Translations under genes and position numbers: made by a program
The notes under the pieces: generated by a model
What the model was told of the DNA's origin: nothing
Databases searched by the model: none
Seen by the model: the letters and a program-made list of their open reading frames with translations, nothing else
Virus record (IMG/VR): IMGVR_UViG_3300010354_000511
Coordinates: 1 to 27,048 of that record
Reading direction: 5' to 3' (one strand)
Length of the DNA stretch: 27,048 nucleotides
Source: a virus
Shown here: piece by piece, positions 1 to 17,238 of the stretch
How the letters are laid out: each line of letters begins with the position of its first letter
Numbering within the stretch: position 1 is the stretch's first letter

Positions 1-2309
1 AGGCTGTCGGTTGCGGCAGGGAGCGAGTTGCCGACGGTCAGGCCAGCTGTTGCGCCAGCCTCGGTCACCACCGTCACCTGATCGGTGGTTGCGTCGATGA
101 TCCCGCCCCAGCGCAGGTTCTCGGTCGTCAGCCTCCCGAAACCGACCGGATACCAGCTGTTGCCGTTCCACATGCGGAGCTGACCCGTGCTCTCCTGGAG
201 CCACAGGCAGCCGCTGTGGTCGTTGACGATGCCTGGGTTCTCCTCCTGGATGTAGGCGATTGCGTAATCCGCCAGCGCCTCGCGGGTGACCGATCCGCTG
301 GCCATCCGATCAGCGCTCAGGAACCCGCTCGTGATCTTGCTCGCGTCGAGGTTGGGGATGTCCGAAGCCGACAGGGTCGTGGCCGAAACGACGTGGCCCT
401 TTGCATCGGTGCTGACCTTCGTATAGGTTCCAGCCGCGAGCGGACTGGCGACGTGGGTCAGACGACCCGAAACGTCCACGCTCAGAGAGGCATCGTCAAC
501 GCTGACGCCGCCCAGGACCGTTGCCTCGGCTGGTGCCAGATGAAGACGGCCGTCAGGCTCGACAACGGTGCCCTCGCCCGAATAGATCCCGCCCTTGTTG
601 GTGCCGTTGGGCACTGGCAGGTCGGCACCCACGAGCAGGCGGAAGGTTGGCGCATTCGACGAGGAACCCGTTGCAGGGCCAGCCCAGACCTGATTCGGCG
701 CCTGCTGCTCCAGCGTGATGTTGACCTGAGGCGCGTTTCGACCGGACGGGAAGCTGACGGTATGGATGAATGGCGTGCTCTCGTTGAACGTCAGCGCCGT
801 GAACCCAGCCAGCTGCTGCCAAGTGGTGCCGCTGTAGTAGTAGCCGATCCCGTCGTTGTCGTTGACGTGGAGCTGCCCGATGAAGTTGCCAGATGCCGAC
901 GGCGTTGTCACCGACACCACCGCGCTGCTGTTGTCGGCGAGCTTCTGGGCCGTGATCGAGTCGTCGGCGAACTTCGCTCCCGTCACAGCCCCGTCGACGA
1001 TGGCCGACGTGTCCACCGAGTTCGAGCTCAGCGCCGTCGAGAACGTGCCAGTGCCAGAGCCCACGACCGCGCCAATCAGCGAGATCGTCTGGTCACCAGT
1101 GTTCGTCCCGCTGCTTGTACCCGAGAAGCTGCTGCCTGGGGCCCATGTGCCACTGGCGACCGCCAGGCTCCCCAGCCCCAGCGCCGTTCGCTGAGCGGAC
1201 GCATCGGCTCCCGCGATCAGCGCACGACCAGCTGCCGTGCAAGGCACCTCCTGCACGGGACCAGCGGCGCCATCGTTTCGACCCAGCACCACGTCGCCCT
1301 GCGTGGTGTCCTGCATCTTGTCGATCGTGATGATCCCGCCAGCCAGCTCGTTTGAGGTGACGGATCCAGGCGCCAGTACCTGGCTGCCTGGGAGGCTGTT
1401 CGGGACGATCTTGGTTGCGTCGATCGAGGCGTCGGCCAGCTTCGGCGTGGTGATCGCCTGATCGACCACGCGGGTCGTGGTCACGGATCCGACCCCGAGC
1501 TTGTTGACCGTCACGCTTCCGTCGATGAGCTTCGTCCCGCTCACCGACCCGTCAGCGAGGCTCAGCTTGTCGGCGGTCACCGATCCGTCAGCCAGCGCTG
1601 CGGTGCCCACTGCGCCGACTGACAGCTTGTCGGCAGTCACCTGGCTCGCGCCGATGGCGTCAGCTGTCACCGAGCCAGTGGCCAGCACTCGCGCCGACAC
1701 CGCATCGTCGCCGAGCACCTGCTCGGTCACCGCGCCAATGGCCAGCGCCGACGTGCCCACCGCGCCAGCCGCCAAGGCCGCTGGGCCCACTGCCCCAGTA
1801 GCCAGCTTCTCGCTCGTGACGCTCTGGTTCGCGTAGGCCGTGGTCCCCAGCGGGCTGACCTTGTCGGTGGTCACCGCGAGGTCCGCCAGCTTGGAAGTAA
1901 CCACCGCACCGTCGAGCAGGCCTTGCTCACCGACTCGAACCAGGACGTAGCTGCCGTTGTCGTAGATCCACAGCTCCCCAGTCCCGTTGTCCAGCCAGCC
2001 ACGGCCCTCGTAGTTCCCGCTGGTCGGCGCTGCGCCCTGTACCGCGATCGTTGAGCTATGCGCGAGCTTGACCGAGGTGATCGAAGCGTCCAGCAGAACG
2101 TCAGCGTTCAGCTTCGTCGCGCTGTTCTGGTCGAGCTTCTCCAGGTCGATCGACCCAGCTGCAGCAGCGTCAGCGCCTGCTTCCCACAGCGCCTTTGACG
2201 TGACCTTCTTTGTCTCGCTCGCAGAGACATCGACGATCGGCAGAACGTCAGAAACCGCCACCTCAGCCTGCAACAGCGCAGGTAGCTGCGTGATCCTCTG
2301 GTCGCTCAT
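1..2309 (-). CDS. Long repetitive tail fibre protein (partial, C-terminus off the left edge)
   Basis: The minus-strand frame from the ATG at 2309 stays open to base 1, giving at least 769 residues with no stop. The N-terminus (MSDQRITQLPAL, then DVLPIVDVSASETKK) resembles the virion-attachment end of phage tail fibres. Residues about 130 to 330 are built from short repeats such as DGSVTADKL, GAVGTAAL and ATGSVTADAI, a pattern typical of elongated beta-rich fibre shafts. Two stretches (around GRGWLDNGTGELWIYDNGSY and SGCLWLQESTGQLRMWNGNS) look like related small modules that recur near each end. It is the last gene of the tail module, after the gpJ-like tip and two tube-fold proteins, which fits a receptor-binding or side-fibre role. 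A CCTAGACT motif lies 26 bases before the start. The receptor-binding tip is probably beyond the window. The fibre call is firm; the receptor is unknown. Confidence 0.85.
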   Translation of the reverse strand, partial: MSDQRITQLPALLQAEVAVSDVLPIVDVSASETKKVTSKALWEAGADAAAAGSIDLEKLDQNSATKLNADVLLDASITSVKLAHSSTIAVQGAAPTSGNYEGRGWLDNGTGELWIYDNGSYVLVRVGEQGLLDGAVVTSKLADLAVTTDKVSPLGTTAYANQSVTSEKLATGAVGPAALAAGAVGTSALAIGAVTEQVLGDDAVSARVLATGSVTADAIGASQVTADKLSVGAVGTAALADGSVTADKLSLADGSVSGTKLIDGSVTVNKLGVGSVTTTRVVDQAITTPKLADASIDATKIVPNSLPGSQVLAPGSVTSNELAGGIITIDKMQDTTQGDVVLGRNDGAAGPVQEVPCTAAGRALIAGADASAQRTALGLGSLAVASGTWAPGSSFSGTSSGTNTGDQTISLIGAVVGSGTGTFSTALSSNSVDTSAIVDGAVTGAKFADDSITAQKLADNSSAVVSVTTPSASGNFIGQLHVNDNDGIGYYYSGTTWQQLAGFTALTFNESTPFIHTVSFPSGRNAPQVNITLEQQAPNQVWAGPATGSSSNAPTFRLLVGADLPVPNGTNKGGIYSGEGTVVEPDGRLHLAPAEATVLGGVSVDDASLSVDVSGRLTHVASPLAAGTYTKVSTDAKGHVVSATTLSASDIPNLDASKITSGFLSADRMASGSVTREALADYAIAYIQEENPGIVNDHSGCLWLQESTGQLRMWNGNSWYPVGFGRLTTENLRWGGIIDATTDQVTVVTEAGATAGLTVGNSLPAATDS
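1440..1900 (-). repeat. Degenerate short-period repeats in the fibre shaft
   Basis: This part of the fibre gene encodes many imperfect copies of roughly 9- to 16-residue units ending in KL or AL (SVTADKL, AVTTDKV, SVTSEKL, AVGPAAL, AVGTSAL). At DNA level short phrases such as caccgatccgtcagccag recur. The period is set by protein structure rather than by exact DNA copies, so I read it as a beta-structural shaft, not as a mobile or CRISPR repeat. Confidence 0.7.
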
Positions 2310-2344: not shown

Positions 2345-3232
2345 TCAGTCGTCTGTCGACTTCAGCAGGAACCCTAGCTCACGCTCCTGCTCAATCCTGA
2401 AGTCCGTCTCTTGCAGGATGTACTCAGCGGGCGAGCCAAGGCGCAAGCGGAACTCACCTGTCGTCACGAAGTCGATTGAGCAGTTGATGAGTTCGTCAGG
2501 CGCAACCTCGACACCTGTCTTCGTCGCGACGGCGTGCAGCTCGTAGAAGACGCCATACGAAGCCCCCGAGCCTGGATCCACCAGCGACAGGTAGAGGTCA
2601 AACTGAGCGCCTACGTCAACACGCTGGATCACCTGGAGCAGCAGCAGCGACAGCTCTCGCCCGGTGTCCGCACTGCAATCCGAACAGGGATCCGCCTCGG
2701 GCTGGAACAGGCAGTCGATCGTTCCAGATCCCGTCAGCAGTCCCGCGTTGTACTGGTTGCGGAACTTGTCAGACAGGGCCGTGGTGTCGATCGCCTCCCT
2801 CTCGGTGTTGAAGCTGTAGCTCGTCACGTCACCGAGCAGGTTGTAGTCCGCGTCGCGTAGCTCAATCAGCACCGGGATCGGATCGCCAGTGAAGCCCTGG
2901 AGCTGTACCTCGCTGCCAGTACGGTCGCCGGCAATCGCATCAGCAAAGGTCGTGTATGCGCGGATGCCGCCTGCCTGGTTGATGTGGGCGTAGACGATGA
3001 TGTTGTCCTCGATCTGCCCAGAAGCCCAGCTGTTAAAGGCAAAGAACGCCAGGCCCCTCGGGTCCGTTGTTGTGATCGACAGACGGTCGCCCGTGATGAT
3101 GTTGTCCTCCGCCTCTGGAAAGCTGAACCGATTGAGGCTCGCGTTGACGTCAGCAGGCCGCATCTCGGTGGCAGGCAGGCGGCCCACCGATCGACGAATG
3201 CGAATGTTGCCCGAGCTGCCGAGGTGATACAT
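2345..3232 (-). CDS. Tail-tube-fold protein, third copy (tail tip associated)
   Basis: This 295-residue protein has an N-terminal part of about 130 residues that I do not recognise. The following core contains SYSFNTEREAIDTTALSD and then TGSGTIDCLF. The same layout (aromatic-Ser opening, DTT/NTSTL, then TGxGxxxxxF) is present in the major tail tube candidate at 12332 and in the neighbour at 3232. A CSDC pair lies near residue 190. The start ATG overlaps the stop of the upstream gene as TGATG, which implies translational coupling. Its place after the gpJ-like gene, not before the tape measure, argues against it being the main tube subunit. It may instead form a tip or adaptor ring. The family link rests on motif comparison by eye; the specific role is unknown. 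Confidence 0.65.
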   Translation of the reverse strand: MYHLGSSGNIRIRRSVGRLPATEMRPADVNASLNRFSFPEAEDNIITGDRLSITTTDPRGLAFFAFNSWASGQIEDNIIVYAHINQAGGIRAYTTFADAIAGDRTGSEVQLQGFTGDPIPVLIELRDADYNLLGDVTSYSFNTEREAIDTTALSDKFRNQYNAGLLTGSGTIDCLFQPEADPCSDCSADTGRELSLLLLQVIQRVDVGAQFDLYLSLVDPGSGASYGVFYELHAVATKTGVEVAPDELINCSIDFVTTGEFRLRLGSPAEYILQETDFRIEQERELGFLLKSTDD

Positions 3233-3678
3233 CAGACCGAGATGACTTCGACGAAGTCGCCGTCTACGGTGAACTGGATCGCAACAGTCGTCAGTTCGCC
3301 CGTGGTCACCGCTACGCCAGCGCTGCTGATCCAGGCGTCACAGACGACATCATCGGTGCCACTGCCGCTCACCACGCCGCCGACGTTCAGCTGAAGACGG
3401 ACGCGATCGGTCGTTTGGATCGGGCCAGTCTTCTGGACCTTGTGCAGGAGGGTCGTGAACTGATCGAACGTCGCGCTTTCTCCAGGCTCCAGCTTGTAGT
3501 ACATCAGCGTTGCCGAGCCGGTCGCGCCTTTGATGCCTGGCACGAAGGTGTCGGCGTAGCTGCCCAGCGTGCTCGTGTTCAGCAGGTTCACGGTCGTGTC
3601 CAGCGACCAGTCGCGAACCTTCGCCATCTCCTTGCCGTTCACGACCAGACGGCCGTTCCGCCCCGTAAAGAAACCCAT
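3232..3678 (-). CDS. Small tail-tube-fold protein, second copy
   Basis: This 148-residue protein opens MGFFTGRNGRLVVNGKEM and continues with VRDWSLDTTVNLLNTSTLG and GATGSATLMYY. This is the layout of phage tail tube proteins, with a beta-strand opening, an 'NTSTL' loop and a beta-sandwich. The size matches a minimal tube subunit. The main tube candidate at 12332 is larger and sits in the usual place before the chaperones, so this protein is probably an additional tip or adaptor ring protein, or an alternative tube subunit. The start is preceded by GAGGGCAGG as a ribosome binding site, and CCTAGACT lies 23 bases upstream. The next gene overlaps its stop by TGATG. Confidence 0.7.
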   Translation of the reverse strand: MGFFTGRNGRLVVNGKEMAKVRDWSLDTTVNLLNTSTLGSYADTFVPGIKGATGSATLMYYKLEPGESATFDQFTTLLHKVQKTGPIQTTDRVRLQLNVGGVVSGSGTDDVVCDAWISSAGVAVTTGELTTVAIQFTVDGDFVEVISV

Positions 3679-3701
3679 TGCCAGTGCCTGCCCTCAGGCG
3701 A

Positions 3702-3709
3702 AGTCTAGG
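3702..3709 (-). promoter_or_regulatory. CCTAGACT motif before the 3232-3678 gene
   Basis: This exact copy of the octamer lies 23 bases before the ATG at 3678. Its TAG is also the stop codon of the gpJ-like gene (TGC TCC TAG). It may be a -10-like element, but no convincing -35 is present. Confidence 0.4.
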
Positions 3710-6700
3710 AGCACGTCACACCAAGCTCGATGAAGTCGCTGTCCGTCAGCTTCGCCACGAAGCTGAGCCCAGCGGGGTTGCACGGGTGGACGGTCGCCTT
3801 GACCGTTGTCTCCCCTCCCTCTTCCATCGACACCTCGGTGACGCGGAAGACCCGCTTGTTGGTCTGCTCCACGCCAAGGGAGAACAGCGCGCCCTCCCGG
3901 TCGGACAACGTCGCGGCGACGCCGTTCACCACCGACACCACACGGGCGCTGACCTCATCCCCGCTCCGGTAGGTCAAGGCCGTGTAAGTGCCGTTCGGAA
4001 TCGGCACGCCCAGCGGAGCGTTCAGTGCTCCGCCAGCGCCGACCGATCCTGTCAGCACGCTGTCCCAGCTGTTTGTCCCGATGTCAACGAAAATGTAGTC
4101 GCCAGGGCCGATTGGCGTGTCAGTCGGCACTGTCTTGAACTCGATCGCGCTCCGCACGTACCGTCGCAGGTTGCACAGCAGGCGCCCGTAGAGCACTGCC
4201 TGACGACGCTGCGTCACCCAGTTCGACAGGTCAAAGGTCTGGCGCACCGCTGTTGAGGTGTTGGTGTCGAACCGTGTCAGCGTCACCGACTCATTGCGAG
4301 GGAACACCTCATCGGTCCTGGTGTCTCGGTAGATGACCGTCGCGATCAGATCCTTCGTGTTGTCGCCGTAGTCGAGGAACTCCTCCTTGTAGCTGCCTTC
4401 GAGGATGTTGCCCTGGTTGAACAGGGCGCTGATCGCCACCTGCCGCTGCGCGTCGCCATCGGGCGCCACCGGCAGCGCAGGGATCAACGTCTCTCGGCCG
4501 TTGATCCTGGCGAACTCAAGCAGGCTGAAGGGGGCAGCATCGACCCAGAACTGGCGCCAGCTGGTCGGCTCGGCTATGGCCCCGTCCATGAAGAACTCGC
4601 AGCCCAGGCCATTGTTCTTGCAGAACCGCTTGGCCAGCGCCAACCGCTCCCAGTCGATCCCGTTCGGGTTGGCCGTCTGCCCGATCCCGTTCTCCTTGTC
4701 CAGCACGGTGTCGGCAAAAATGTCTGGTGCGTAGCTGCTGCTCCGCCCTGGCCTCGATGTGCTGCCGCTGGTTTCGTCCACGATCCAGCAGGTCTTGCCC
4801 TCGCGGACGAAGGCGGTCACGTTCCGCAAGTCCTGAAGGCCAGCGCCGCTGTACGTGTGGATTGACAGCAGACTGAAGCCGTCGTACTTCAGCAGGGCAT
4901 CAGCGCATTTCTGCTGCTCGGTTACGTTCACCAGCTCGAACTCGGGACCCTGGTCAGCGCTGGTCTGCAGTTCGCTGTCGGATCGAGTCGAAAAGAAGTC
5001 CCACTCGTTCATGAAGATGGGTCCACGCTCGCGCTGCTTCGGCAGCCCGTCGAGGTCGATCGGCACCTTGTAGCCGATGAACGAGAACGAGTCACGGCCG
5101 ACCAGCACCCTGGTCCGTTTGCCCGCGTTCTCCAGGAACGAGTAGTCGAGGTAGCCCTGCTCCGCGATCTCCGCAGTCGGGTCGAGGATTGGCAGGAACT
5201 CGAACTCGCGTTTCTTCAGCCCCAGCGGACTCTCGAACTTGATCGTCACGAAGCTGTCGGCATCAGCTGCCCGCCGCATCGTGAAGATCGTCGGCACCCG
5301 CTGCCAGACGCCATCAGCCTCGCGGAAGCGGATTGCAAAGAACGCCATCCGACCGTGGATGCCGTTGTCGCTGAACTTGAAGCCGTCAGGGGCGTCCTTC
5401 TTGCCGTAGGTCTTCGCTCGACCCTGCACCCTGCGGAACAGCCGCCCACGGATGTTCAGCTTCACGTAGTCGCAAGCCGTCAGCGTCTGGTAGCTGGCGC
5501 TGTCCGTCTTGCACAAGCACTTCGTATAGAAGTTGTTGTCGGCATCACGTACCAGCTGCTCCCAGTTCTTGACGATGTACTGGGCGTAGTTGATCGCCTC
5601 TTCCTTCTCCTCAAGTAGGTCGTTCAGCGCCGCCTTGATTGCATAGGCGCCGATCTGGTCCGTCACGAAGTCGCCCTGCAGGCTGTTGATCTTGTCCTTC
5701 AGAACGCGGATGCCACCGAGGTATCTGTTGCCGTCGATCCCAGTGAACGCCGTGGTCGTCGTGCGGAGAAAGAGCACATAGGCTTCCTGCTTCTCACCGA
5801 CGCGACGGTCCAAGTAGTCGCTGCGCTCCTCCTGCAGGCGATCAATCTCATCATCGGCGACCTGCTTGGCACCGATGTCGTTGTTGGCTTCTGCCTGTCG
5901 CCGCAGCCTGCGCTGCTCCTTGATCGCAGCCAGCAGGTTCTGGGCCGTAGTTTCGGTCTTTGCCTCAGACCTGAAGCGGCTCTCGAAGCCGCCAGCCGCC
6001 ACCTCATCACGCAGCTGCCGCACCGCCTCCAGATCCGCGTCGTAAGCCTTGCGCACCGCATCCGTTCGCAGCTTGGGCTTGTCGTTCAGCTTCTGATCCA
6101 GCAGCCGACGTGTGTACTGCAACGAGCCGCCTGGGTAGAAGGTGAACGTCCTGCTCCGCCCCGTCAGGTCCGTCCACGTCACGTCACGGGCGCCCTTGAA
6201 GCTGTACGAAATCGAGCCGAAGCTGAACTCGACATCGTTCTCCTGTAGCTTGCGATAAATCTCGCGGTCGTCAGCCTCGTAAAGAGTCGGGCGCTCCGCC
6301 CACGGCAGGATGCTCTCACTGCCGACAACATTCGCGTTGGCCTCCACCAGCACCTTGTCGATCTCTTCCCGCGTCGCGTAGGCAGGGCTGGTCAGCACGT
6401 CCAAGGCGTTCTCGATCGACTCCAGCTTCGCTTCGCTGTAGGCGCGGGCCCGCTGCTTGATGTAGCTGGTCGTGGGTCGTCGCCCCTTCTGGATGCATTG
6501 CAGACCGGCGAAGACTGGGCCATCGTCAAGGTTGCGGTTGTCGCTCTGGTAGGTCAGCTTCCACAGCGCGCTGCCCAGTTGATACGTCGAGCCGATGTCC
6601 AGCTGATCAACCAGCTGATAACGGAGCTGCTTGGCCGCTTCGTCCGCAACCTTGTCCTTCTTTGGGTTGGCCCCTTTGAACGTGATCTGAATGACTGTCC

Positions 6701-7709
6701 CAACGTCCCAGGTACTGCCGTTGCTGGTGCCCCAGGAATCGCCGCTCAGCTGAATCCCGTTGTTGGCATAGTCGAGCTTCCCGGATTGCCGACGCTCGAT
6801 CAGCTCCACGTTGATCGGGATCGGGCTGTAGCAGCCGAAGGTCGTCTTGGCCGTAGGCGTCAGCGCCTGACTGAAGCCAGGCCGCCAGTTGTCCCCGTCC
6901 TTGATCTGGTGAACAACGTCGGAGCTGCCAAGGCCATCACGAGCGGGATCCCTGTTGTCACCGATCACTCGGTTGTTGAACCTCACCGGCCCACCCTTGC
7001 CGTTGTAGTAGACCCAGGTGTTTGCCTCGCGGATGTCGCCCAGCGGCAGCTGTCCAAAGGCGCACTTGTTGAAGCTGATCGCCTGGACGTTGGCCGCGCC
7101 CACCAGCAGCAACAGCTGCATGTACTGAGCGCTGCCCGACGACTCCACTGCAGACCAGATCAGCTGAGTCGTCAGCCGCACCGAGCCCTGGGGGTTGATG
7201 CCCCTGTTGCAGTAGACCAGCGGCACCGTGTCGCCATAGGTCGCCAGCTCCTGCGTGCTGTTGAAGCCGAACCGAGGCGTAAACCTCTGGTTGCGGCTCT
7301 GCCTGCCGCCCTTGGGATCCTCGGGCTTCGGCGCCAGCAGAGCGCTGATCACCTGGAAGATGACCCCGACAACGAACAGGATTACACCGAGCGTTCCTGG
7401 GTCCGCTCGGACGATCGCCAGCCGCTCTTCCTCGCTCTGCCGCCAGTCCCGCTGAACCGCAAGGAACTCGTGGAACTCATCCGTGCTGATGCCCAGCGCT
7501 GCGCACAACGCGTACTGATAGGGCAGCAGCGGTCGCCTTACGGCACGATGAACCAGTGCAGGGGCGCTTGCTGCGTCAGGATCACCGTCCCACCGGGGGC
7601 GATACACAGCCAGCCCCTGCCCGTCCAGCTCGCCAGTGCTCGCCAGCTCAACAACCCGATCGTCCCCGCCTGCAGGCTGCTCGTTCGGTGTCCAGTCGTC
7701 AGCAGCCAC
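3705..7709 (-). CDS. gpJ-like tail tip / host specificity protein
   Basis: This is the largest gene, up to 1334 residues, placed directly after gpM-, gpL- and gpK-like genes as in lambda-type tails. It would form the tail tip or central fibre base. A hydrophobic stretch at about 106 to 127 (GTLGVILFVVGVIFQVISAL) resembles the hydrophobic segment of lambda gpI/gpJ-type tip proteins. Around residues 550 to 645 and 695 to 725 there are charged heptad-like helices (ARN-, KE- and LE-rich), probably a coiled-coil insertion. The C-terminal third is beta-rich and Thr/Val-rich. The only standard start seen is a GTG at 7709, which makes the first 57 residues overprint the preceding gene by 172 bases. 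A CTG at 7526 preceded by TAAGG, or a TTG at 7508, are alternatives. The role is firm; the N-terminus is not. Confidence 0.85.
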   Translation of the reverse strand: MAADDWTPNEQPAGGDDRVVELASTGELDGQGLAVYRPRWDGDPDAASAPALVHRAVRRPLLPYQYALCAALGISTDEFHEFLAVQRDWRQSEEERLAIVRADPGTLGVILFVVGVIFQVISALLAPKPEDPKGGRQSRNQRFTPRFGFNSTQELATYGDTVPLVYCNRGINPQGSVRLTTQLIWSAVESSGSAQYMQLLLLVGAANVQAISFNKCAFGQLPLGDIREANTWVYYNGKGGPVRFNNRVIGDNRDPARDGLGSSDVVHQIKDGDNWRPGFSQALTPTAKTTFGCYSPIPINVELIERRQSGKLDYANNGIQLSGDSWGTSNGSTWDVGTVIQITFKGANPKKDKVADEAAKQLRYQLVDQLDIGSTYQLGSALWKLTYQSDNRNLDDGPVFAGLQCIQKGRRPTTSYIKQRARAYSEAKLESIENALDVLTSPAYATREEIDKVLVEANANVVGSESILPWAERPTLYEADDREIYRKLQENDVEFSFGSISYSFKGARDVTWTDLTGRSRTFTFYPGGSLQYTRRLLDQKLNDKPKLRTDAVRKAYDADLEAVRQLRDEVAAGGFESRFRSEAKTETTAQNLLAAIKEQRRLRRQAEANNDIGAKQVADDEIDRLQEERSDYLDRRVGEKQEAYVLFLRTTTTAFTGIDGNRYLGGIRVLKDKINSLQGDFVTDQIGAYAIKAALNDLLEEKEEAINYAQYIVKNWEQLVRDADNNFYTKCLCKTDSASYQTLTACDYVKLNIRGRLFRRVQGRAKTYGKKDAPDGFKFSDNGIHGRMAFFAIRFREADGVWQRVPTIFTMRRAADADSFVTIKFESPLGLKKREFEFLPILDPTAEIAEQGYLDYSFLENAGKRTRVLVGRDSFSFIGYKVPIDLDGLPKQRERGPIFMNEWDFFSTRSDSELQTSADQGPEFELVNVTEQQKCADALLKYDGFSLLSIHTYSGAGLQDLRNVTAFVREGKTCWIVDETSGSTSRPGRSSSYAPDIFADTVLDKENGIGQTANPNGIDWERLALAKRFCKNNGLGCEFFMDGAIAEPTSWRQFWVDAAPFSLLEFARINGRETLIPALPVAPDGDAQRQVAISALFNQGNILEGSYKEEFLDYGDNTKDLIATVIYRDTRTDEVFPRNESVTLTRFDTNTSTAVRQTFDLSNWVTQRRQAVLYGRLLCNLRRYVRSAIEFKTVPTDTPIGPGDYIFVDIGTNSWDSVLTGSVGAGGALNAPLGVPIPNGTYTALTYRSGDEVSARVVSVVNGVAATLSDREGALFSLGVEQTNKRVFRVTEVSMEEGGETTVKATVHPCNPAGLSFVAKLTDSDFIELGVTCS

Positions 7710-7891
7710 CGCGCAATCCGCCTGGGAGGAAGGTCGGCTTCAGTGTAGGTTTCGTAAACCCAGGCGAACTCCGCGCTGTAGTCCCGCAGCCCCAGTCGCC
7801 GCCTGACCTCGCACACCAGCTGAAAGCAGTCGGCTGCTCCCTCTGACGGCCTGGCGCCCCAGCGGTATGGCAGCCCGATCAAATCGTTCAC
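7538..7891 (-). CDS. NlpC/P60-like tail assembly protein (gpK-like), possibly inactive
   Basis: This protein of 117 residues opens NDLIGLPYRWGARPSEGAADC, the standard start of NlpC/P60 domains in phage tail proteins, with the nucleophile candidate Cys22 in a DCFQLV context. In active members a second motif of HVGI type supplies the catalytic histidine. Here the matching place reads GWLCIAPGG, and only His67 and His112 remain as candidates. It may therefore be a structural, non-catalytic derivative, or the histidine may be shifted. Gene position (after gpL-like, before gpJ-like) supports the gpK role in tail tip assembly. Its start overlaps the upstream stop by 4 bases (ATGA). Its 3' half is overlapped by the annotated 5' end of the gpJ-like gene. 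Confidence 0.75.
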   Translation of the reverse strand: MNDLIGLPYRWGARPSEGAADCFQLVCEVRRRLGLRDYSAEFAWVYETYTEADLPPRRIARWLLTTGHRTSSLQAGTIGLLSWRALASWTGRGWLCIAPGGTVILTQQAPLHWFIVP

Positions 7892-8355
7892 TTCAGGCGA
7901 ATCGAGGAATCGAGAGGCAGGATGCCTGAGTTCTCGCTGGTGATGATCCTGTTCGGTATCTGAGAGTTCACCGCATCCATCGCAGCACTGAAGCGAAGCT
8001 CCACGGTCGTCTCACTGAAGCTGGCACCGTTGCCGACGTAGAACTCAGGGAACGCCCCAGGCAACGGCTGCCCGCTGGCGTTGACCCATAGGTTCGTTAG
8101 CGTCAGCTCGCTGTTGCGGTTGCCGTCGCCAGCTGTCACCAGCTGCAAAACCAGCTCCTGATTCGGGAACAGGCAGGTCAACGTCTCGCTGTCGCCACCC
8201 AGCGCTGCAAGGTTGCCAGATACCTGGAAAGGACAGAACCTGTACGTCGAGCCGTTGTAGACGAAGTCCTCTCCAGCGAAGTAGTTCTGGCACCGCAAGC
8301 GAGGCTGCCCTGACGGCTGCCAATCGAACAGCTGGCAGATTCGGATGACGCTCAT
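7888..8355 (-). CDS. gpL-like minor tail tip protein
   Basis: This 155-residue protein opens MSVIRICQLFDWQPSG. Its place between the gpM-like and gpK-like genes, its size and its beta-rich composition fit the gpL/DUF1833-type minor tail proteins that join the tube end to the tip. Four cysteines (7, 22, 41 and 61) are all in the first 61 residues and none follow. Lambda gpL is known to bind an iron-sulfur cluster, though through a C-terminal set, so a metal-binding site here is only an idea. The start overlaps the upstream stop by ATGA, and the next gene overlaps in the same way. The family assignment relies mostly on synteny. Confidence 0.6.
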   Translation of the reverse strand: MSVIRICQLFDWQPSGQPRLRCQNYFAGEDFVYNGSTYRFCPFQVSGNLAALGGDSETLTCLFPNQELVLQLVTAGDGNRNSELTLTNLWVNASGQPLPGAFPEFYVGNGASFSETTVELRFSAAMDAVNSQIPNRIITSENSGILPLDSSIRLK

Positions 8356-8744
8356 GTGAAGTCGATCTCGCCAACGAGCGTCACGCTCACGGTGCTGATA
8401 CCAGGGAAGACTGATTCAACCTGGGGCGGCTCGGCGTAGGCCCATCGAACAGACGGGTCAACCGAGGCAGCCTGCCTCAGGCCGTTTGACGCGCCGCCGA
8501 ACACGAACGCGGGATTGATGTCGAAGCGGCTGAGCGTGCCCGCCTCGCTGCGGTAGTGGTTCCAGATCAAGGCAGCCTTGTCGTCGCTGATGTTCGCGAA
8601 CTGCATCTCGATCCTCATCCCCACGCGCACATTGCCGAAACTACGCTTCCAGACGGTCCCGTTGAGCGTCTGGTAGCGACGTGTTGGGTAGTCGCCAGGG
8701 TTGAACGACCGCGACGATGGGACAAGGGAAGGGAAGTCAGCCAT
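8352..8744 (-). CDS. gpM-like minor tail protein
   Basis: This 130-residue protein opens MADFPSLVPSSRSFNPGDYP and contains RIEMQFANISDDKAALIWNH, a pattern I associate with phage minor tail proteins of the gpM class that cap the distal tail after the tape measure. It sits directly downstream of the tape measure gene with a TGATG overlap and upstream of gpL-like, gpK-like and gpJ-like genes, so the order matches lambda (H, M, L, K, J). No membrane segment or catalytic motif is visible. The role is based on order and general likeness; a distal-tail (Dit-like) function is the nearest alternative. Confidence 0.65.
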   Translation of the reverse strand: MADFPSLVPSSRSFNPGDYPTRRYQTLNGTVWKRSFGNVRVGMRIEMQFANISDDKAALIWNHYRSEAGTLSRFDINPAFVFGGASNGLRQAASVDPSVRWAYAEPPQVESVFPGISTVSVTLVGEIDFT

Positions 8745-11635
8745 CAGCGGATGCCCAGGCGGGTGCGGGTGCGGGGGCTGTTCTGGAGCCTAGCCATGGC
8801 CCGCTCTTCGCCTTGCTTGCCGCCCTTGGCGGCGGCCTCGTTGATGATCCGTGGCAGATCGGCCACAGGCACGTAGTCCTCGTCCTTGAAGCGCATCACG
8901 GGCCCCGTGGTGATGTTCACCTGACGGCTGCCCCCCTGAGGTGAACCGCGCATCCCAGCGCGCAGATCCTCGTTGCTCAGCACGCCGCCGCTGCGGCTGG
9001 GCACCATCAGTTCGGGACCACGTTCCCCGACGAGATACGGCTGACCTGCGCTTACGGGCCCACCACCAGCTCGCTTCCCACCTGTGAAGTTGCCCGACAG
9101 GATCGAGAACAGACCGACGCCATCGCTGCCACCCAGCAGGTTCAGACCCGCACCCATCAGCAGCTTCCCGAACTGACTGAGCGTGTCGCTGAGGATGTCC
9201 TTCCAGCTCTCGGTCTTGTTGATGATGTTGTCGAGCGACCGTTCGATCGCGCCGTAGGCCGTAGTGCCTGCTTGATTGACGAGATCAACGATCTTCTGCT
9301 CCTGGTCCTTGAGCTTGTCCATTGCCTTCTGCCGCTCGCGGATCGCAGCATTGCCATCGCGGATTGCCTTGGCTTCAGCTTCACTCACGATCACACCGTC
9401 CGCCTTGAGCTTGGCGATCTGGAACTCGATCTGCAGGCGATCCCGCTCCTCATCGGTCATCGCACCAGCCAGTAGGTACTCCTCCTGCAGGCTGTTGAGG
9501 ATGTCGGCATAGGCTTTCTGCCGATCGTTCTCGATCTTCTCCAGGGCCTCTGCGGTGTCCTGCTGAGCAGCCAGCGCTTCAGCCTGGGCCTTTGTCTCCA
9601 GCGCACTACGCACTCGTGCATCAGCCTCGCCATCGAGTGACTTCAGCAGGTCGTATCCGATCGCCAGGATCCGCTCCTCGCCTTCGAGTCGCGTCTTGAG
9701 CTGCTCGTCGCCACGGGCCTCAGCGTCAGCGATCAAGCCGCGCAGAACTGACTGCTGCTCCAGCTGCGCCGTCTCCAAACCGATCAGTCGCAGGCGCTTC
9801 TGAATCTTCGCCTCCTCCTCAGCGGCTTTCTCGGCCGCGCTCTTGCCGCCGCTCTTGCCGCCACCGCCTGCACCACCGCCGCCACCGGCAAGGGGTGTTC
9901 CAGCCCCCGTCAGGGACGAGTAAGCCAGCTTCTCTGGCCCCTTCACCTCGCCGCTTCGCCCTGCCCCGGTAATCGCCTTGTTGGCGGCAGCCGCGACACC
10001 GCTCAGCGCTTTCGTGACCGCACTGCCAGCGGCTGACAGGGCCCCCTTCAGCCACGCAGGCAGGCCGTTGTAGAAGTTGGCCACCAGCTGACGCGCCTGA
10101 TCGAACGCCGACCTGAAGGCGTTGACGACCGGGGTGATGATGCCCGACGCGCCGCTGGCGATCCGGTCCCAGACGCCCTGGATCCAGTTGCCCAGGGCGC
10201 TGGCTGCGTCGCCCATCGCGGTGGTCACCTGCTTCCACTTGCTGGCGATCCACGCCATCGCCTCGTCCCACTTCGCGCGGACAGGCTCGAACGCCGTGCT
10301 CAGGTCGTTGACCAGCGTGTCCCGCACCGACAGCAGATCGGTCTGCAGCTCGGCGGAGCGGGCCTGGGCTTCGCTCACCTTGCCGCTGATGTCGAACGCC
10401 TTGTCGAATGCGCCAGCCAGGTCGGCGGCAGCCTTGATGGTCTGCTTGAGCGGGTCCAGCAAGACGCTCAGCGTCTGGCCGAACGCCTTGATCGCCAGCG
10501 CAGCACCCTGCAGCGTCGCCTTGATGACCGCGCCGAACTCGCTCTGGTCCGAGAACAGGTTGCTCAGCTCGGTCTGCACCGCCTTCCAGGCGCCCTGGAT
10601 CGTGTTCGCCGCCTCCGACTGCGCCCTGGCCGCTGCCCCAGCGCTGCCCTCCTGCTTCTGAATCAACTCCTCAAACCGCTCCAGGTTCTGGATGACCGGC
10701 AGCAGCGCAGGGCCTGCCTCGGTCCCCAGCGCCTTGAAGATCTGGCCGGTGTCGAGGCCCTTCAGCTTCTGGAGGGTGCCCAGCAGGCCGTCGGCCGCGA
10801 CTGATGCCGCGTCGATCTCGATGCCTGTGCCCTTCAGGGCGTCGGCAGCCTCGCCGGACGCGAGACGCGCCAGCGCACCCTTCAGGCCGGTGAAGGCGAC
10901 CTCTGACTGCACACCAGCGGCGGTGGACTGGGCAATGGCTGCGTTGACCTCCTCCAGCGGGATGCTCAAGCCTGCGGCCGCAGACGCCACCTTGCCGATG
11001 TTGCGGGCGTATTCCTCGACGACGATCTTGCCGTCGTTCTGCGTCTGGATGAACCGATCGACCAGCAGCCCCGCGTTCTCCGCCGACAGGCCGTAGGCGT
11101 TCAGGACGCTGGTGGCGGCATTGCCGACCGTGTTGATGTCCGAGAAGCCGCCCGTCGCACCCAAGCTCGCGGCCTTGAGCACCAGGGCCGCGTCGCTGGC
11201 CTTCACGAAGCCGGCAGACGCCACGTCGTAGGCGGCGGCCGTCAGCTCCGCCACGCTCGCCTGGCCCTTCAGCTCAGCGCTCACGCCCTTCAGCGCCGCC
11301 ACCAGCTCCTGGCTGTTGGTGCCGAGCGTGCGCACCTTCGCCTCGGCGAAGTCCTGCGCGGCGATCGTCTGGAAGCCTGAGGTCAGGGCGCCGATGGCGC
11401 CGGTCACGGCGGCAATCGGGCCCAGGGCCGCCTGCAGGGCCGTGCCGATCGTCCCGATCCCAGCGCTGGCACCTCGGGCCGCACGGCCCAGGCCGCCCAT
11501 CGCCGCGCCGGCCTTCGGCAGGTCGCCCTGCAGCTTCGCCACCTGACGCTCCAGCGCCAGCATCCGCTGGTCCAGCTTGTCGAGCTCGCTCTCGCCTTTC
11601 GTCCTGACGGCAACGTCGATGACAGTCGAAGCCAT
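8744..11635 (-). CDS. Tail tape measure protein
   Basis: This 963-residue protein sets tail length and is ejected with DNA. The N-terminus has a coiled segment (residues 10 to 45). A long Ala/Gly-rich region follows (KAGAAMGGLGRAARGASAGI onward) that matches the TP901-type tape measure core, with AAAYDVASAGFVKASDAALV at about 140. An Ala- and Gly-rich, partly hydrophobic stretch lies in the middle. Residues about 610 to 830 are Glu/Lys/Arg-rich helices. The C-terminus has the common tape measure tail SAGQPYLVGERGPELMVPS. By the lambda rule of about 1.5 angstrom per residue a tail near 145 nm would be expected (inference). It starts 26 bases after the end of the frameshifted chaperone frame, the usual place. 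Confidence 0.93.
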   Translation of the reverse strand: MASTVIDVAVRTKGESELDKLDQRMLALERQVAKLQGDLPKAGAAMGGLGRAARGASAGIGTIGTALQAALGPIAAVTGAIGALTSGFQTIAAQDFAEAKVRTLGTNSQELVAALKGVSAELKGQASVAELTAAAYDVASAGFVKASDAALVLKAASLGATGGFSDINTVGNAATSVLNAYGLSAENAGLLVDRFIQTQNDGKIVVEEYARNIGKVASAAAGLSIPLEEVNAAIAQSTAAGVQSEVAFTGLKGALARLASGEAADALKGTGIEIDAASVAADGLLGTLQKLKGLDTGQIFKALGTEAGPALLPVIQNLERFEELIQKQEGSAGAAARAQSEAANTIQGAWKAVQTELSNLFSDQSEFGAVIKATLQGAALAIKAFGQTLSVLLDPLKQTIKAAADLAGAFDKAFDISGKVSEAQARSAELQTDLLSVRDTLVNDLSTAFEPVRAKWDEAMAWIASKWKQVTTAMGDAASALGNWIQGVWDRIASGASGIITPVVNAFRSAFDQARQLVANFYNGLPAWLKGALSAAGSAVTKALSGVAAAANKAITGAGRSGEVKGPEKLAYSSLTGAGTPLAGGGGGAGGGGKSGGKSAAEKAAEEEAKIQKRLRLIGLETAQLEQQSVLRGLIADAEARGDEQLKTRLEGEERILAIGYDLLKSLDGEADARVRSALETKAQAEALAAQQDTAEALEKIENDRQKAYADILNSLQEEYLLAGAMTDEERDRLQIEFQIAKLKADGVIVSEAEAKAIRDGNAAIRERQKAMDKLKDQEQKIVDLVNQAGTTAYGAIERSLDNIINKTESWKDILSDTLSQFGKLLMGAGLNLLGGSDGVGLFSILSGNFTGGKRAGGGPVSAGQPYLVGERGPELMVPSRSGGVLSNEDLRAGMRGSPQGGSRQVNITTGPVMRFKDEDYVPVADLPRIINEAAAKGGKQGEERAMARLQNSPRTRTRLGIR

Positions 11636-11661
11636 GGCGAAGAAGCGTCAGCAGCTTGATA

Positions 11662-12182
11662 CTACCGACGCATTGTTCGACTCTTTCGTTGCTTCTCAGC
11701 TTCCTGCTGACGCCTCAGCTCGTAGAAGGCATCCCACAGCCTCAGCTCCTCCAGCGTCATCTCCTGACGCAACCGTGAGAGGGTCATGCCGAGTTTCTCG
11801 GCAACGACCATCTCAAGGATCAGCTGGCCGTCTTTCTTGAGCTGCTGGAGGACTGTTTTGGGTCCACGGCTGCTCCAGGCTCATAGGTGAGCACTTGCAT
11901 CAGCAGGGCCTCGACCACGTCTGACGGCAGCTGATTCCGCAGCGTTGCCACGTCTCCAGGGGTGAAGCACCGCTCGCCGTTCTCGTCGCAGGCCTTCTTC
12001 ACCAGCAGCTGCAGGGCGATGTCGTTGCCGTCGCTTGAGGTCGATGCCTCCTTCGCCTTCGCCCGCTCCGCCAGTGTCAGGGGCGTCATGTAAAACACGA
12101 ACTCCGAGCCATCCGGCAGGTCCACCTTGCGGCGGTGGATGCCCATGTTGACGGCCGACGTAAGCCTCTCGATGTCGCGCAT
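11662..12182 (-). CDS. Tail assembly chaperone, long frameshift product (gpGT-like)
   Basis: Reading the short chaperone gene from its ATG to the AAA at 11856-11858 and then slipping back one base gives an open frame to the TAG at 11662. This adds 64 residues to the first 109, for 173 in all. The added part contains LEMVVAEKLGMTLSRLRQEM and then EELRLWDAFYELRRQQEAEK, the W-x-AFY-L helix with a charged tail that is typical of the T domain of tailed-phage chaperones. In lambda and relatives this minor product (gpGT) bridges the tape measure and tube subunits during assembly and is absent from the virion. Nothing starts the T frame on its own, so frameshifting is the only likely way to express it. 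Confidence 0.88.
11820..12182 (-). CDS. Tail assembly chaperone, short product (gpG-like)
   Basis: This 120-residue protein opens MRDIERLTSAVNMGIHRRKV. The sequence DLPDGSEFVFYMTPLTLAERA is a clear mark of siphophage tail assembly chaperones (small N-terminal beta unit, then a helical body with LTLAER). It would coat the tape measure protein while the tail tube polymerises. The ATG is preceded by AGGAAG at good spacing. The 0-frame ends in a Ser/Lys-rich tail (SSSSSRKTAS). The C_CCA_AAA slippery heptamer lies 33 bases before its stop. It is placed between the major tube protein and tape measure genes, as expected. Confidence 0.88.
   Translation of the reverse strand: MRDIERLTSAVNMGIHRRKVDLPDGSEFVFYMTPLTLAERAKAKEASTSSDGNDIALQLLVKKACDENGERCFTPGDVATLRNQLPSDVVEALLMQVLTYEPGAAVDPKQSSSSSRKTAS
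11856..11862 (-). other. -1 ribosomal frameshift slippery site C_CCA_AAA
   Basis: On the minus strand the bases read CCCAAAA, aligned with the 0-frame as GAC CCA AAA, which fits the X_XXY_YYZ rule. The next codons are CAG TCC TCC. A weak downstream stem can be drawn between CAGCT and AGCTG about 15 bases on. The position, a few codons before the 0-frame stop and followed by a 64-codon open -1 frame with a chaperone T domain, strongly supports function. Confidence 0.88.
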
Positions 12183-12211
12183 GTCTTCCTGGTGGTTGCT
12201 CCAGAAAGTGT

Positions 12212-12260
12212 AAGGGCAGGCAGGTCAGGTGGTAGCAACCACCAAACCTGACCCGCCCTT
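12212..12260 (-). promoter_or_regulatory. Imperfect stem-loop between tube and chaperone genes
   Basis: In the 149-base gap, AAGGGC (12212-12217) pairs with GCCCTT (12255-12260) and GGTCAGG (12223-12229) pairs with CCTGACC (12247-12253). An inner TGGT/ACCA pairing is also possible. No T-run follows on the minus strand, so it is not a classic intrinsic terminator. It may attenuate or stabilise the transcript so that the tube protein is made in excess over the chaperones. The rest of the gap shows no gene I can support. Confidence 0.5.
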
Positions 12261-12331
12261 CGGATCACCACCGCCAGGTAGTTCACCATGATGCCCTCGG
12301 AAGCCTCCCCGAGAACGCAGCCAGCCTAGCG

Positions 12332-13123
12332 TCAGCTGAACGACAATCCGAAAACGGTCTTCGGGTTGATGACGTTGAAGCTGACCTCGGCACTGGTCGG
12401 ATCGTCAGGGTTCACCCCGAACGACATGCTGGTGAGCGTAATGTCCGACTCGATGAACAGCGACTTCGTGTCGTCCACGCCGCCGGAACCGTCGCTGACA
12501 GCGTTCGCGTAGAGCTTCACGCTGGCGCCTTCTTGCGACTTGAGCAGGACATTGCTCTGGATGCGCTGGGCCAGGCTGCTCTGATCGTCGGTGAAGTAGA
12601 CGGTCATCGAGCCAGTGCCGGTGGCGTATCCAGGCTGAGTGCGACGGAAGGGCGCCAGCTTGCCACCAGAGCTGCTGATGGTGCAGGGCAGCGTGGTCGT
12701 GTCCAGCTCTTCGCGGGTGATCTCGATCGAGAACTCGCGCACCTGGCAGACGATGGCGTACTCCGCCATGTCGATCCCGATGTGGTTCGCTGCACCGGGG
12801 GTGTCGGCAGTGCCGGTGCCGCCGTCACCGTTCAGAGTGATGGCAGTGCCGCCAGCGGTGGCTGACACCTGGATGGCGGTGGCCGCTACGGCGACGACGT
12901 AGTAGCTGGTGCCGGCGGTCAGCGCGGTGTCGAGGCTGGCGGTGCCCTCTTCCGTGAACTTCACCACGTCGCCGACGCGATAGTCGTGCGAAACCGGAAT
13001 GGTGATGTCAGCTCCAGCGGGAAAGTCGGTGAAGTCCAGCAGGCAGAACTGAGTCCCAGCAGGCTGGAACATGATGGCGCCTTCCTGGCCGGTCAGCGCC
13101 TGGCTTGAACATGCGACAGGCAC
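12332..13123 (-). CDS. Major tail tube protein
   Basis: This 263-residue protein starts at a GTG (MPVACSSQALTGQEG) preceded by ACGAGGTAC as a ribosome binding site. The opening ALTGQEGAIMFQPAGT and the later VREFSIEITREELDTTTL and GYATGTGSMTVYF are typical of tube subunits. Between residues about 38 and 95 lies an inserted module (YRVGDVVKFTEEGTASLDTA ... NGDGGTGT), a small beta domain often found in such proteins. The gene sits after the tail terminator and before the chaperones, the standard place. An internal ATG at MFQPAG is possible but would lose the conserved opening. Two further proteins at 3232 and 2345 share the core. Confidence 0.85.
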   Translation of the reverse strand: MPVACSSQALTGQEGAIMFQPAGTQFCLLDFTDFPAGADITIPVSHDYRVGDVVKFTEEGTASLDTALTAGTSYYVVAVAATAIQVSATAGGTAITLNGDGGTGTADTPGAANHIGIDMAEYAIVCQVREFSIEITREELDTTTLPCTISSSGGKLAPFRRTQPGYATGTGSMTVYFTDDQSSLAQRIQSNVLLKSQEGASVKLYANAVSDGSGGVDDTKSLFIESDITLTSMSFGVNPDDPTSAEVSFNVINPKTVFGLSFS

Positions 13124-13186
13124 GATGTACCTCGTAGAAACGACAGACGGGGGCGTCTACCTGCGGGGGCTCAGGCTGCTCGAAGA

Positions 13187-13615
13187 CTAGCCCTTGCCAG
13201 TGAAAGCAGCTGACACCACGGCCAGGGCGTAGGGCTGCTGACCACTGAGCACGTTGGTCGGGCCCTGGATGTTGCTCACCCGTGGCCGCACGTTGTCGGG
13301 GTCAGGGCGGAGGTAGAGCTGCGCCAGAGCAGTGGCCGCCACCTGCGCCAGCTGCTCGACCCGCTTCATGCCCTGCGCACGCGGCGCGTAGCAGCTGACC
13401 TGGATGCTGCCCCGTACGTACTCGATCAAGCCCTCGCCCAGGCCGCAAACGGTGCCCTCGGCAGTGCCAGGGAAGCTGATTGACAGGATGACGTGCTCAC
13501 CGTCGGATGGCGTCTCCTGAACGTTGTCGAAGCAGACCGGCACGGGCACGGGCAGCGCCTGGTAGGCCGCGACGATCGCCGACTCGAACATGGCACGGAT
13601 CGTGGCGTAGCTCAT
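13187..13615 (-). CDS. Tail terminator-like protein (DUF4128-like)
   Basis: This 142-residue protein opens MSYATIRAMFESAIVAAYQA, with an N-terminal helix followed by a beta-rich part (HVILSISFPGTAEGT, EYVRGSIQVSCYAP). This is the usual build of phage tail terminators of the DUF4128 type, which cap the tube and join it to the head connector. The ATG at 13615 overlaps the stop of the preceding gene by ATGA, which decides this start over upstream in-frame codons. The stop TAG lies 63 bases before the tube protein start. Order (connector, terminator, tube) agrees. Confidence 0.75.
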   Translation of the reverse strand: MSYATIRAMFESAIVAAYQALPVPVPVCFDNVQETPSDGEHVILSISFPGTAEGTVCGLGEGLIEYVRGSIQVSCYAPRAQGMKRVEQLAQVAATALAQLYLRPDPDNVRPRVSNIQGPTNVLSGQQPYALAVVSAAFTGKG

Positions 13616-14013
13616 CGCGGCAGGAAGCGCTGGATCTGCTTGTTCAGGTCGGCTGGCATCTGGCTCACGATCGTCGTGAACCAGGCTGCGCCTCCCGCTC
13701 CACCCTTCGCCCACTTCGGGTCAAGAGCCACCCGCTCGGCGTAGGGCAGGTTGTTGCTGATGTACCAAGTCCCGTCGTACTCGATCGGACCGTTGTAGTC
13801 GGGCAGGTTGACAGGGCCTGGATCGTCGCGCTCGGGTGCCACGCTGCGATCGGGGCTGTCCTTCCCGATAAACCAGCTGGAGGCCATCCGAGCCGTGTCC
13901 TTCGGGTTGGCCTTGGCCAGGCTGGACTGCGTGAGGATCAGGTGCCTCGCCAGCCCCTTGTCCAGCGCCTCCTTGATGTCAGGAACGTGCTGACTGAGCT
14001 TCTTCCTCGCCAT
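13612..14013 (-). CDS. HK97 gp10-like / tail completion (neck) protein
   Basis: This 133-residue basic protein opens MARKKLSQHVPDIKEALDKG. The later part IEYDGTWYISNNLPYAERVA followed by GGAAWFTTIV matches the 'I-x-N-x-x-x-YA' signature of HK97 gp10-like neck proteins, which complete the head-tail joint. The ATG at 14013 has GGAGG five bases upstream and overlaps the upstream stop as TGATG; a GTG one codon earlier is also possible. It lies between a connector gene and the tail terminator. Confidence 0.75.
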   Translation of the reverse strand: MARKKLSQHVPDIKEALDKGLARHLILTQSSLAKANPKDTARMASSWFIGKDSPDRSVAPERDDPGPVNLPDYNGPIEYDGTWYISNNLPYAERVALDPKWAKGGAGGAAWFTTIVSQMPADLNKQIQRFLPR

Positions 14014-14378
14014 CACGCCCTCCGAGCTTGCAGTTTGCAGGCGTATTTCACGTCACCGCTGAACTGAGGGCTGATCGCGGTGATCTGCCATCGAGCGCCG
14101 TCGTATTCAAGCTGATCGAGAGTCGTGGGCCAAATGTCGCTGATCCCGCTGGCATTGACCCATGCCTCGATGGCGTAGACCTCACCGATGCCGCCTTCCT
14201 CAGTGCGCATCGTCTTGGTTACGGCGCCAGCCGCAGGGAAGACGGTCTCCGAAAGCGAGACGTCACCCGTCGCAGGGTTGTAAGCCTGGGCGCGTCGGAT
14301 GTAGCTCAGGCTGGACACGCGAAAGGCATCGACCAGCGTGTCCGCAAGCGGTCGTGCCCAGAGATCCTGATTCGCCAT
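14013..14378 (-). CDS. Head closure / connector protein
   Basis: This 121-residue protein opens MANQDLWARPLADTLVDAFR, with beta-strand-rich content and SYIRRAQAYNPATGDVSLSE. Size, composition (ending in QITAISPQFSGDVKYACKLQ) and position between the adaptor-like gene and gp10-like gene fit a head closure (stopper) protein. It lies two bases after the stop of the upstream gene and its own stop overlaps the next start. No specific family motif is certain, so the call relies on synteny. Confidence 0.6.
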   Translation of the reverse strand: MANQDLWARPLADTLVDAFRVSSLSYIRRAQAYNPATGDVSLSETVFPAAGAVTKTMRTEEGGIGEVYAIEAWVNASGISDIWPTTLDQLEYDGARWQITAISPQFSGDVKYACKLQARRA

Positions 14379-14380
14379 GC

Positions 14381-14941
14381 TCAGGCCCTCACGCGAAGGA
14401 TGAGGCCACTGCCGCCAGTGCCACCGGCGTACCAGCAGCCGAGCAGATCGACCAGGAACGGGTATCGCTGAAGCACCAGCGGAGCGCCAGCGCTTACCTT
14501 CACCGTGGTCGCCGTGGGGGCGTAGAAGCTCTGGCTCAGCTCGCCCAGGGTCTGGCTCTGGATCGGGCCGGTGATGGCGGCAGCAGCCGTCGTCAACGGC
14601 GCCTGATGGACCGCCAGCGCCAGGTAGGCCGTGGCCGCTACGAGCTCCTTCGGCAGCATCGAGCAGCTGGCAACGCTGCCCCTACAGGTTGCGTCCGATC
14701 GCGGCCACTGGAGGGCCTGCTCCAGCGCAGGATCGTCGCTGCTGGGAGAACAGCGAGTGCCGATGAACGAGAGAGTGTCCAGCTGAAGGGTGGCCGCCAT
14801 TAGGGCCGCCTCCTTCTCCGCCTCGCTCAGGGCGCCCCAGGCGGCCGCCTGAGCGGTTCCTGCGTGCCAGGTGTCAGCCTCGGTCACGGTGATGTAGCTG
14901 GTGGCAGCTGAGCCGCCCAGATCGGCATTGAAGGCAGGCAT
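14381..14941 (-). CDS. Head-tail adaptor (DnaT-like / gp6-like family)
   Basis: This 186-residue protein contains SYITVTEADTWHAGTAQAAAW followed by LSEAEKEAALMAATLQLDTL, then PRSDATCRG. This is the layout of the phage proteins often labelled 'DnaT-like ssDNA-binding', which in structural terms are head-tail adaptors binding the portal. The N-terminal 'SY-x-T-x-xEA-x-x-W' and the helical A-x-x-x-A-T-x-x-(L/I)-D are clear. Its start overlaps the stop of the small upstream ORF as TGATG. The role as adaptor is well supported by position; DNA binding is not implied. Confidence 0.75.
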   Translation of the reverse strand: MPAFNADLGGSAATSYITVTEADTWHAGTAQAAAWGALSEAEKEAALMAATLQLDTLSFIGTRCSPSSDDPALEQALQWPRSDATCRGSVASCSMLPKELVAATAYLALAVHQAPLTTAAAAITGPIQSQTLGELSQSFYAPTATTVKVSAGAPLVLQRYPFLVDLLGCWYAGGTGGSGLILRVRA

Positions 14942-17076: not shown

Positions 17077-17238
17077 TCAGAGCACCTGAGCAGCAGTCAG
17101 CTGGTCCTGGTCAACCTGGCCGCTGGAGAGCAGTTCCATCATCAAGCCATAGAGCCGGTAAGCCTCACCTTCGTCTCCCCGGAGGATCGCCAGCCGGCGA
17201 GCGTCGCGGAGCTCCTGGTAGGTCTGTTGAGCGTCCAT
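17077..17238 (-). CDS. Small ORF coupled to the MuF-kinase gene
   Basis: This 53-residue protein opens MDAQQTYQELRDARRLAILR and continues with GDEGEAYRLYGLMMELLSSG. It is predicted to be mostly helical. Its ATG shares a base with the stop of the MuF-kinase gene (TGATG), so the two are very likely made together. I know no family for it. Two readings are possible: a small virion or scaffold accessory protein, or a partner/immunity protein for the kinase-like domain encoded just before it, since cognate immunity genes usually follow MuF toxins directly. The frame is open, uses codons like its neighbours and fills an otherwise empty gap, so I think it is real. Confidence 0.65.
   Translation of the reverse strand: MDAQQTYQELRDARRLAILRGDEGEAYRLYGLMMELLSSGQVDQDQLTAAQVL

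Follow-up and report, generated by a model that had tools for sequence, protein, structure and literature searches.

Besides TTP, the protein that would build its tail tube, the virus analysed here encodes two further proteins with the same tube core, T2 and T3, between the genes for the tail hub and the tail fibre. On balance, T2 and T3 probably make up a ring, a pair of rings or a collar at the tail tip that mounts the fibre, and are inherited with the fibre gene as one block.

Gene order and probable host of the virus

The window is the whole IMG/VR record, a linear virus fragment of 27,048 bases, and all the window genes described below are on its minus strand. The late genes follow the siphophage order, that is, terminase, portal, head genes, connectors, tail terminator (13187..13714; phrog_179 tail terminator, 4e-10), TTP (12332..13123; 263 aa), tail assembly chaperone (11820..12182; phrog_20784, 4e-22; phrog_344 tail assembly chaperone, 1e-7) and tape measure protein (8744..11635; phrog_991 tail length tape measure protein, 3e-43). 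The tape measure gene is followed by dist1, dist2, a small peptidase-type gene, J, T2, T3 and the fibre gene. The product of dist1 (8352..8744) matches phrog_15525 minor tail protein (2e-18), with no useful match in Pfam; it is probably the distal-tail ring and putatively Dit itself. The dist2 product (7888..8355) is tentatively a gpL-like minor tail protein, with a weak match to Pfam Phage_tail_L (E 0.08); the family model matches Mic1_31 of Microcystis phage Mic1, annotated as 'Phage tail L', at 1.6e-15. Between dist2 and J lies the gene of a probable peptidase-type minor tail protein (7538..7891; phrog_329 minor tail protein, 3e-4), the product of which, judged from its position and the Mic1 gene order, is probably NlpC-like. 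J (3705..7709), a large hub or central tail protein of 1334 aa, matches phrog_27845 tail protein (2e-9), phrog_31 central tail fiber J (9e-4) and, partially, a tail protein of Mic1. T2 (3232..3678) is a single-domain protein of 148 aa and T3 (2345..3232) a protein of 295 aa; the fibre gene (3..2309; phrog_892 tail fiber protein, 4e-29) runs off the end of the record.

The window TTP is 45% identical to the 'major tail protein' of S-2L and 35% identical to CPKG_00057 of KBS-S-2A. S-2L and KBS-S-2A are cyanophages and, judged by the tube protein, its closest relatives in culture, so that a cyanobacterial host is probable for this virus and likewise for the uncultured aquatic viruses of the group that carry T2 and T3.

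Several other features of these genomes were recorded. The gene at 17238-19313 encodes a minor head protein (phrog_241, 1e-27) with a C-terminal protein-kinase-like region that contains the motifs HQDMHAANVLYD and VIDLGVAR (PHROG 'kinase', E 0.002), an unusual fusion of a head protein with a kinase-like region. Just before the terminase genes, the product of 24507-25784 reads as a ParB-like N-terminus fused to a DNA methylase (TSPPYG motif). Mic1 (locus L177) encodes dist1-like proteins at 5932-7605, 8223-8612, 13011-13433 and 13433-14737, three of them strong matches and one weaker, on both sides of the hub-type tail gene, which suggests that distal-tail-type proteins have multiplied too in this phage.

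A common tube core in TTP, T2 and T3

The original prediction, made from the letters of the window, held that the open reading frames at 12332, 3232 and 2345 encode a common tail-tube-like core. All three are present on the minus strand, and the motifs quoted for them align in register when the families are compared as profiles, the relatives of each protein having been gathered and aligned beforehand. The similarity spans the whole core of about 120 residues, beyond the two motifs, and exceeds what is expected by chance. The comparison of T2 with TTP yields a probability of 96% (E 5e-9) and that of T3 with TTP a probability of 97% (E 2e-10), whereas the other tail families used as controls (dist1, dist2, chaperone) reach 0.1-1.1%. 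The direct comparison of T2 with T3 is weak (12%, E 0.002) and no better than a reversed control, T3 against reversed dist2, which reaches 15.5% (E 0.0017). The direct score was therefore set aside, and the kinship of T2 and T3 rests on TTP as the link and on cross-hits between hidden Markov models (HMMs).

These HMMs were built for TTP, T2 and T3 without the window sequences and run against the 231 open reading frames of the window. Each ranks exactly TTP, T2 and T3 at the top. The T2 model returns the other two at 6.7e-6 (TTP) and 1.3e-4 (T3), the TTP model at 1e-8 (T3) and 0.005 (T2), and the T3 model at 0.001 (TTP) and 0.015 (T2); reversed open reading frames yield zero matches. The families also converge on phrog_1407 major tail protein, which is matched by 9/25 members of the T2 family, 8/29 of the T3 family and 6/17 of the TTP family, with zero matches among decoys; TTP relatives match phrog_1407/158 major tail protein. 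Placement of T2 and T3 in unrelated families had been named at the outset as one result that would speak against a common core; profile searches instead assign T2 to phrog_10528 major tail protein (E 5e-4) and T3 to phrog_1407 (E 0.003). In each of records G020 and G005, the matches at the tube position and at the T2/T3 position are distinct proteins. The motif of the stacking loop of tube proteins is kept in T2 and T3 in the alignments. Net charge (T2 -4, T3 -22, TTP -17) is not decisive, and a sequence search of the PDB with the three profiles returned nothing relevant. The match of T3 to PF16460 (Phage_TTP_11) was not used, at 13.5 bits against a cut-off of 28.4.

Weak matches were also seen elsewhere. 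In record G005 (L182), 12745-12927, which lies within a frame of 910 aa where the tape-measure region ends, weakly matches phrog_1407 (E 0.003). The TTP model weakly matches (E 7e-8 to 1e-3) proteins encoded downstream of the fibre start in L158 (9159-9746), L161 (6228-6815), L076 (10859-11491) and L167 (7365-10388), where perhaps the TTP insertion region alone is common.

TTP consists of an inserted beta-rich region (~27-118) and the tube core (~119-256). In T3, the tube fold is likewise split by an insertion (~15-118) ahead of the core (~119-265), and a C-terminal tail (268-295) is conserved, with low confidence in the model. Homology of the two insertions, for which a GDxV motif had been noticed by eye, is not supported (probability 0.2%). 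Structure prediction, the check proposed for the shared core, was run on T2 and T3, and both models match solved tail tubes. The AF2 models are of moderate confidence (pLDDT 76 for T2 and 72 for T3), and both are predicted to adopt the tube fold, a beta-sandwich with one helix and a long stacking loop. The top Foldseek matches of the T2 model are lambda gpV tubes (E 3e-4), and in VIA-align the best Z-scores are 8.9 for T2, to a bacteriocin tube, and 10.9 for T3, to the R4C tail tube, with the inserted domain unaligned. A Z-score near 8, as for T2, is middling alone; the case is carried by the consistent list of matches together with the sequence evidence.

The T2-T3-fibre gene block

The order hub gene (sometimes with one additional small gene), T2, T3, fibre is conserved in about 140 loci. 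T2 comes directly after J in 121 loci and after dist1 in 16. T3 follows T2 in 140/142 loci with room for it, and the two T2 loci without a T3 call (L026 and L074) end within T3; the fibre gene follows T3 in 124/124 testable loci. T2 and T3 overlap by one base in 84 loci, and in the window, the T3 start codon overlaps the T2 stop (TGATG). The fibre N-terminus, DQRITQLPAL...DVLPIVDVSASETKKVT, is conserved across the block.

The positions originally assigned to the three genes are thus confirmed. TTP occupies the normal tube position, between the tail terminator and the chaperone and tape measure genes, as neither T2 nor T3 does; these two lie beyond the gpJ-like gene and adjoin the fibre gene, between J or dist1 and the fibre in all loci examined, and are therefore filed as relatives of tube proteins, not as tube. 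That a location beyond gpJ places the products at the tip is a further claim, which gene order does not prove because dist1 is also encoded there: in 61 loci, dist1 lies directly after the tape measure gene, ahead of J, and in 17/78, it comes after J. Gene position, then, does not fix the position of T2 and T3 in the virion. Loci with dist1 after J include L017, L038, L041, L085 and L109, and those compared have a divergent class of J. In the loci examined, T2 and T3 are preceded by J or dist1, never immediately by the tape measure gene; neither shows profile likeness to the distal-tail family (hhalign probability against dist1, 0.2% for T2 and 0.1% for T3).

Such an arrangement could also be that of assembly factors for the fibre or hub that stay outside the virion, with the tube fold as their scaffold. 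This role would suit small, stably kept genes that neighbour the fibre gene and have overlapping, probably coupled, reading frames, and many fibres have dedicated assembly factors. However, we know of no fibre chaperone with a tube fold, and the conservation of the stacking loop suggests ring formation; we consider assembly factors improbable.

Inheritance with the fibre

T2 and T3 each form a separate clade. The window T2 is ~60% identical to the T2s of other phages and weakly related to the TTP of its own genome. The duplication originally proposed accordingly stands as ancient common descent, whereas a recent copy of the phage's own TTP is rejected.

INDEPENDENCE from the tube gene is apparent in four records, G007, G009, G010 and G017 (loci L184, L186, L187 and L191), which bear the block with typical T2 and T3. 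The gene between terminator and chaperone or tape measure in these records, defined by flanking terminator-like and chaperone- or tape-measure-like proteins, is Pfam Phage_tube_2 (PF18906), above the cut-off, and the fetched stretches yielded no relative of the window TTP. In L184, the terminator and chaperone families are distinct as well, besides the replaced tube gene, and the tip/fibre block is kept. Identities of tube and block to the window also differ in two loci that retain TTP: L109 is 62% identical to the window in TTP, 28% in T2, 36% in T3 and 30% in J, and L004 shows the reverse, with 39% in TTP, 64% in T2, 51% in T3 and 43% in J.

Partial Mantel tests over 30 dereplicated loci associate the distances of T2 (r 0.56) and T3 (r 0.73) with those of the fibre N-terminus given J, whereas T2 with J given the fibre yields r -0.02; genome linkage remains in these tests, and p = 0.002 is the lowest value attainable with 499 permutations. 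In a smaller set of 12 records that includes TTP, the values are 0.93 for T2-fibre, 0.81 for T2-TTP and 0.70 for T2-J; the correlation of T2 with TTP counts against the preferred reading. T2 and T3 are thus co-inherited with the fibre rather than with the tube or hub, with linkage as a confounder: the co-variation can reflect genome linkage rather than contact, and the sequences also share ancestry. Because T2 and T3 are kept with Phage_tube_2 tubes and their distances follow the fibre, we assign them to the tip/fibre block, as old, diverged relatives of tube proteins.

The same observations bear on the alternative tubes that the original prediction had also allowed, with T2 and T3 as alternative or minor tube proteins that would enter the TTP polymer and alter the length or surface of the tail. 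The full tube fold with its stacking loop is compatible with such a role, as are the tandem, 50% identical tube genes at the tube position of S-H1. However, the genes of T2 and T3 lie outside the tube module, and in the wider set it is the fibre rather than the hub that the two proteins follow more closely. We disfavour alternative tubes as quite unlikely, since both proteins are retained in phages whose tube protein comes from a different Pfam family, Phage_tube_2.

Less improbable, but still rather unlikely, is that T2 and T3 are extra rings on the tail axis between tube and hub that do not hold the fibre and would serve to initiate the tube or to adapt its six-fold symmetry to the three-fold symmetry of the hub. 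Tube-fold rings do so elsewhere, namely, gp48 and gp54 of T4 (PMC8718954) and gpM and the HDI of gpL of lambda (PMC10721106), and, since dist1 can follow J too, a gene in that place could also encode a proximal ring. Against such rings, the distances of T2 show no association with those of J when the fibre is controlled for, dist1 and dist2 are already available for these layers, and retention of T2 and T3 with a different Pfam tube family is harder to explain for proteins that stack on the tube.

Cultured phages and distribution

The T2 and T3 profiles match the tube-position proteins of KBS-S-2A, MED4-184 and S-H1 (E 1e-4 to 1e-15), and the closest cultured matches of T2 (31%) are the tube-position proteins of MED4-184 and MED4-117. 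Searched with both profiles, KBS-S-2A returned its tube protein alone and S-2L returned nothing, so T2 and T3 are absent from both. The fibres of KBS-S-2A nevertheless carry a related N-terminal motif (E 8e-11). The motif therefore has no strict need for T2 and T3, and these are not present whenever the fibre N-terminus is, as would be expected of fibre adaptors; this is the main evidence against a fibre mount. Synechococcus phage S-H1 (L194) carries two tandem tube-fold genes at the tube position (32532-32948 and 32951-33373), 50% identical and annotated as hypothetical.

Relatives of T3 are common in uncultured viruses, with 423 confirmed in one IMG/VR scan, yet a search of 50,697 phage records found no T2-T3 block. 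Relatives of T2 and T3 are absent from the bacterial genomes searched (84,980 species), and there is thus no prophage or host link.

Proposed role of T2 and T3

The preferred reading, a fibre-mounting part of the tail tip, can be put as follows. TTP would build the tail tube. T2 and T3, tube-fold proteins of common ancient descent with cyanophage tube proteins, would now be parts of the tail tip, produced jointly from overlapping genes and passed on with the fibre as one block. At the hub, they may assemble into a single or double ring or collar on the tail axis, a seat to which the fibre trimers would attach, with T3 offering a larger surface through its insertion and conserved C-terminal tail. 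We infer the presence of T2 and T3 in the virion, their ring formation, their copy number and their direct contact with the fibre from this combination of fold, gene order and inheritance. Of the uses originally suggested, tip rings or fibre adaptors, a non-tube role near the tip and fibre is the best supported, and the exact role, ring or adaptor, is the conjectural part. Conceivably, although here we are more hesitant, T2 and T3 represent a collar for fibre mounting that passes from phage to phage as a T2-T3-fibre unit, works with any tube family and is widespread in aquatic siphophages.

On this reading, the tube fold is reused within one tail outside the tube and independently of the tube family. 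A fibre-linked pair of tube-fold proteins appears to be undescribed in the open-access literature searched, where we also found no comparable report of duplicated or second tube proteins.

Comparison with known tail systems

How side fibres are fixed is open for many siphophages, and a study of LSH1 states that the fibre attachment site was not found (PMC13243795); a T2-T3 pair inherited with the fibre is a specific, testable candidate for fixing side fibres to siphophage tails. In JBD30, the upper baseplate protein gp50 and the distal tail protein together form the attachment site of the tail fibre, and gp50 is described as having two beta-sandwich domains with a metal site (PMC11445458); we found no report of a tube-derived pair beside the fibre for this phage.

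The tube proteins of siphocyanophages (CPKG_00057 of KBS-S-2A, CPAG_00054 of MED4-184, AZB50577 and AZB50578 of S-H1) belong to the same sequence superfamily as T2 and T3. Their genes, however, precede the tape measure gene, whereas T2 and T3 lie between hub and fibre and are additional to a separate tube gene.

The gp48 and gp54 rings of the T4 baseplate are paired and adjoin the tube (PMC8718954), and in this they resemble the rings proposed for T2 and T3. T4 is a contractile phage, and the comparison is one of role, not of sequence. To our knowledge, gp48 and gp54 are not inherited as a block with the fibre gene as T2 and T3 are.

Tip proteins with the tube fold have precedents: the topology of lambda gpM is identical to that of the gpV N-domain, and gpL carries a gpV-like domain (PMC10721106). 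Like the proposed T2 and T3, gpM and the HDI of gpL are tube-fold rings at the tail tip, at the distal tail and hub (PMC10721106). Their genes, however, lie between the tape measure gene and J, a place filled here by dist1 and dist2, with which T2 and T3 share no profile similarity. T2 and T3 thus differ from the known tip rings in that their kinship with tube proteins is detectable in sequence, in being additional to dist1 and dist2, and in their fibre-linked inheritance.
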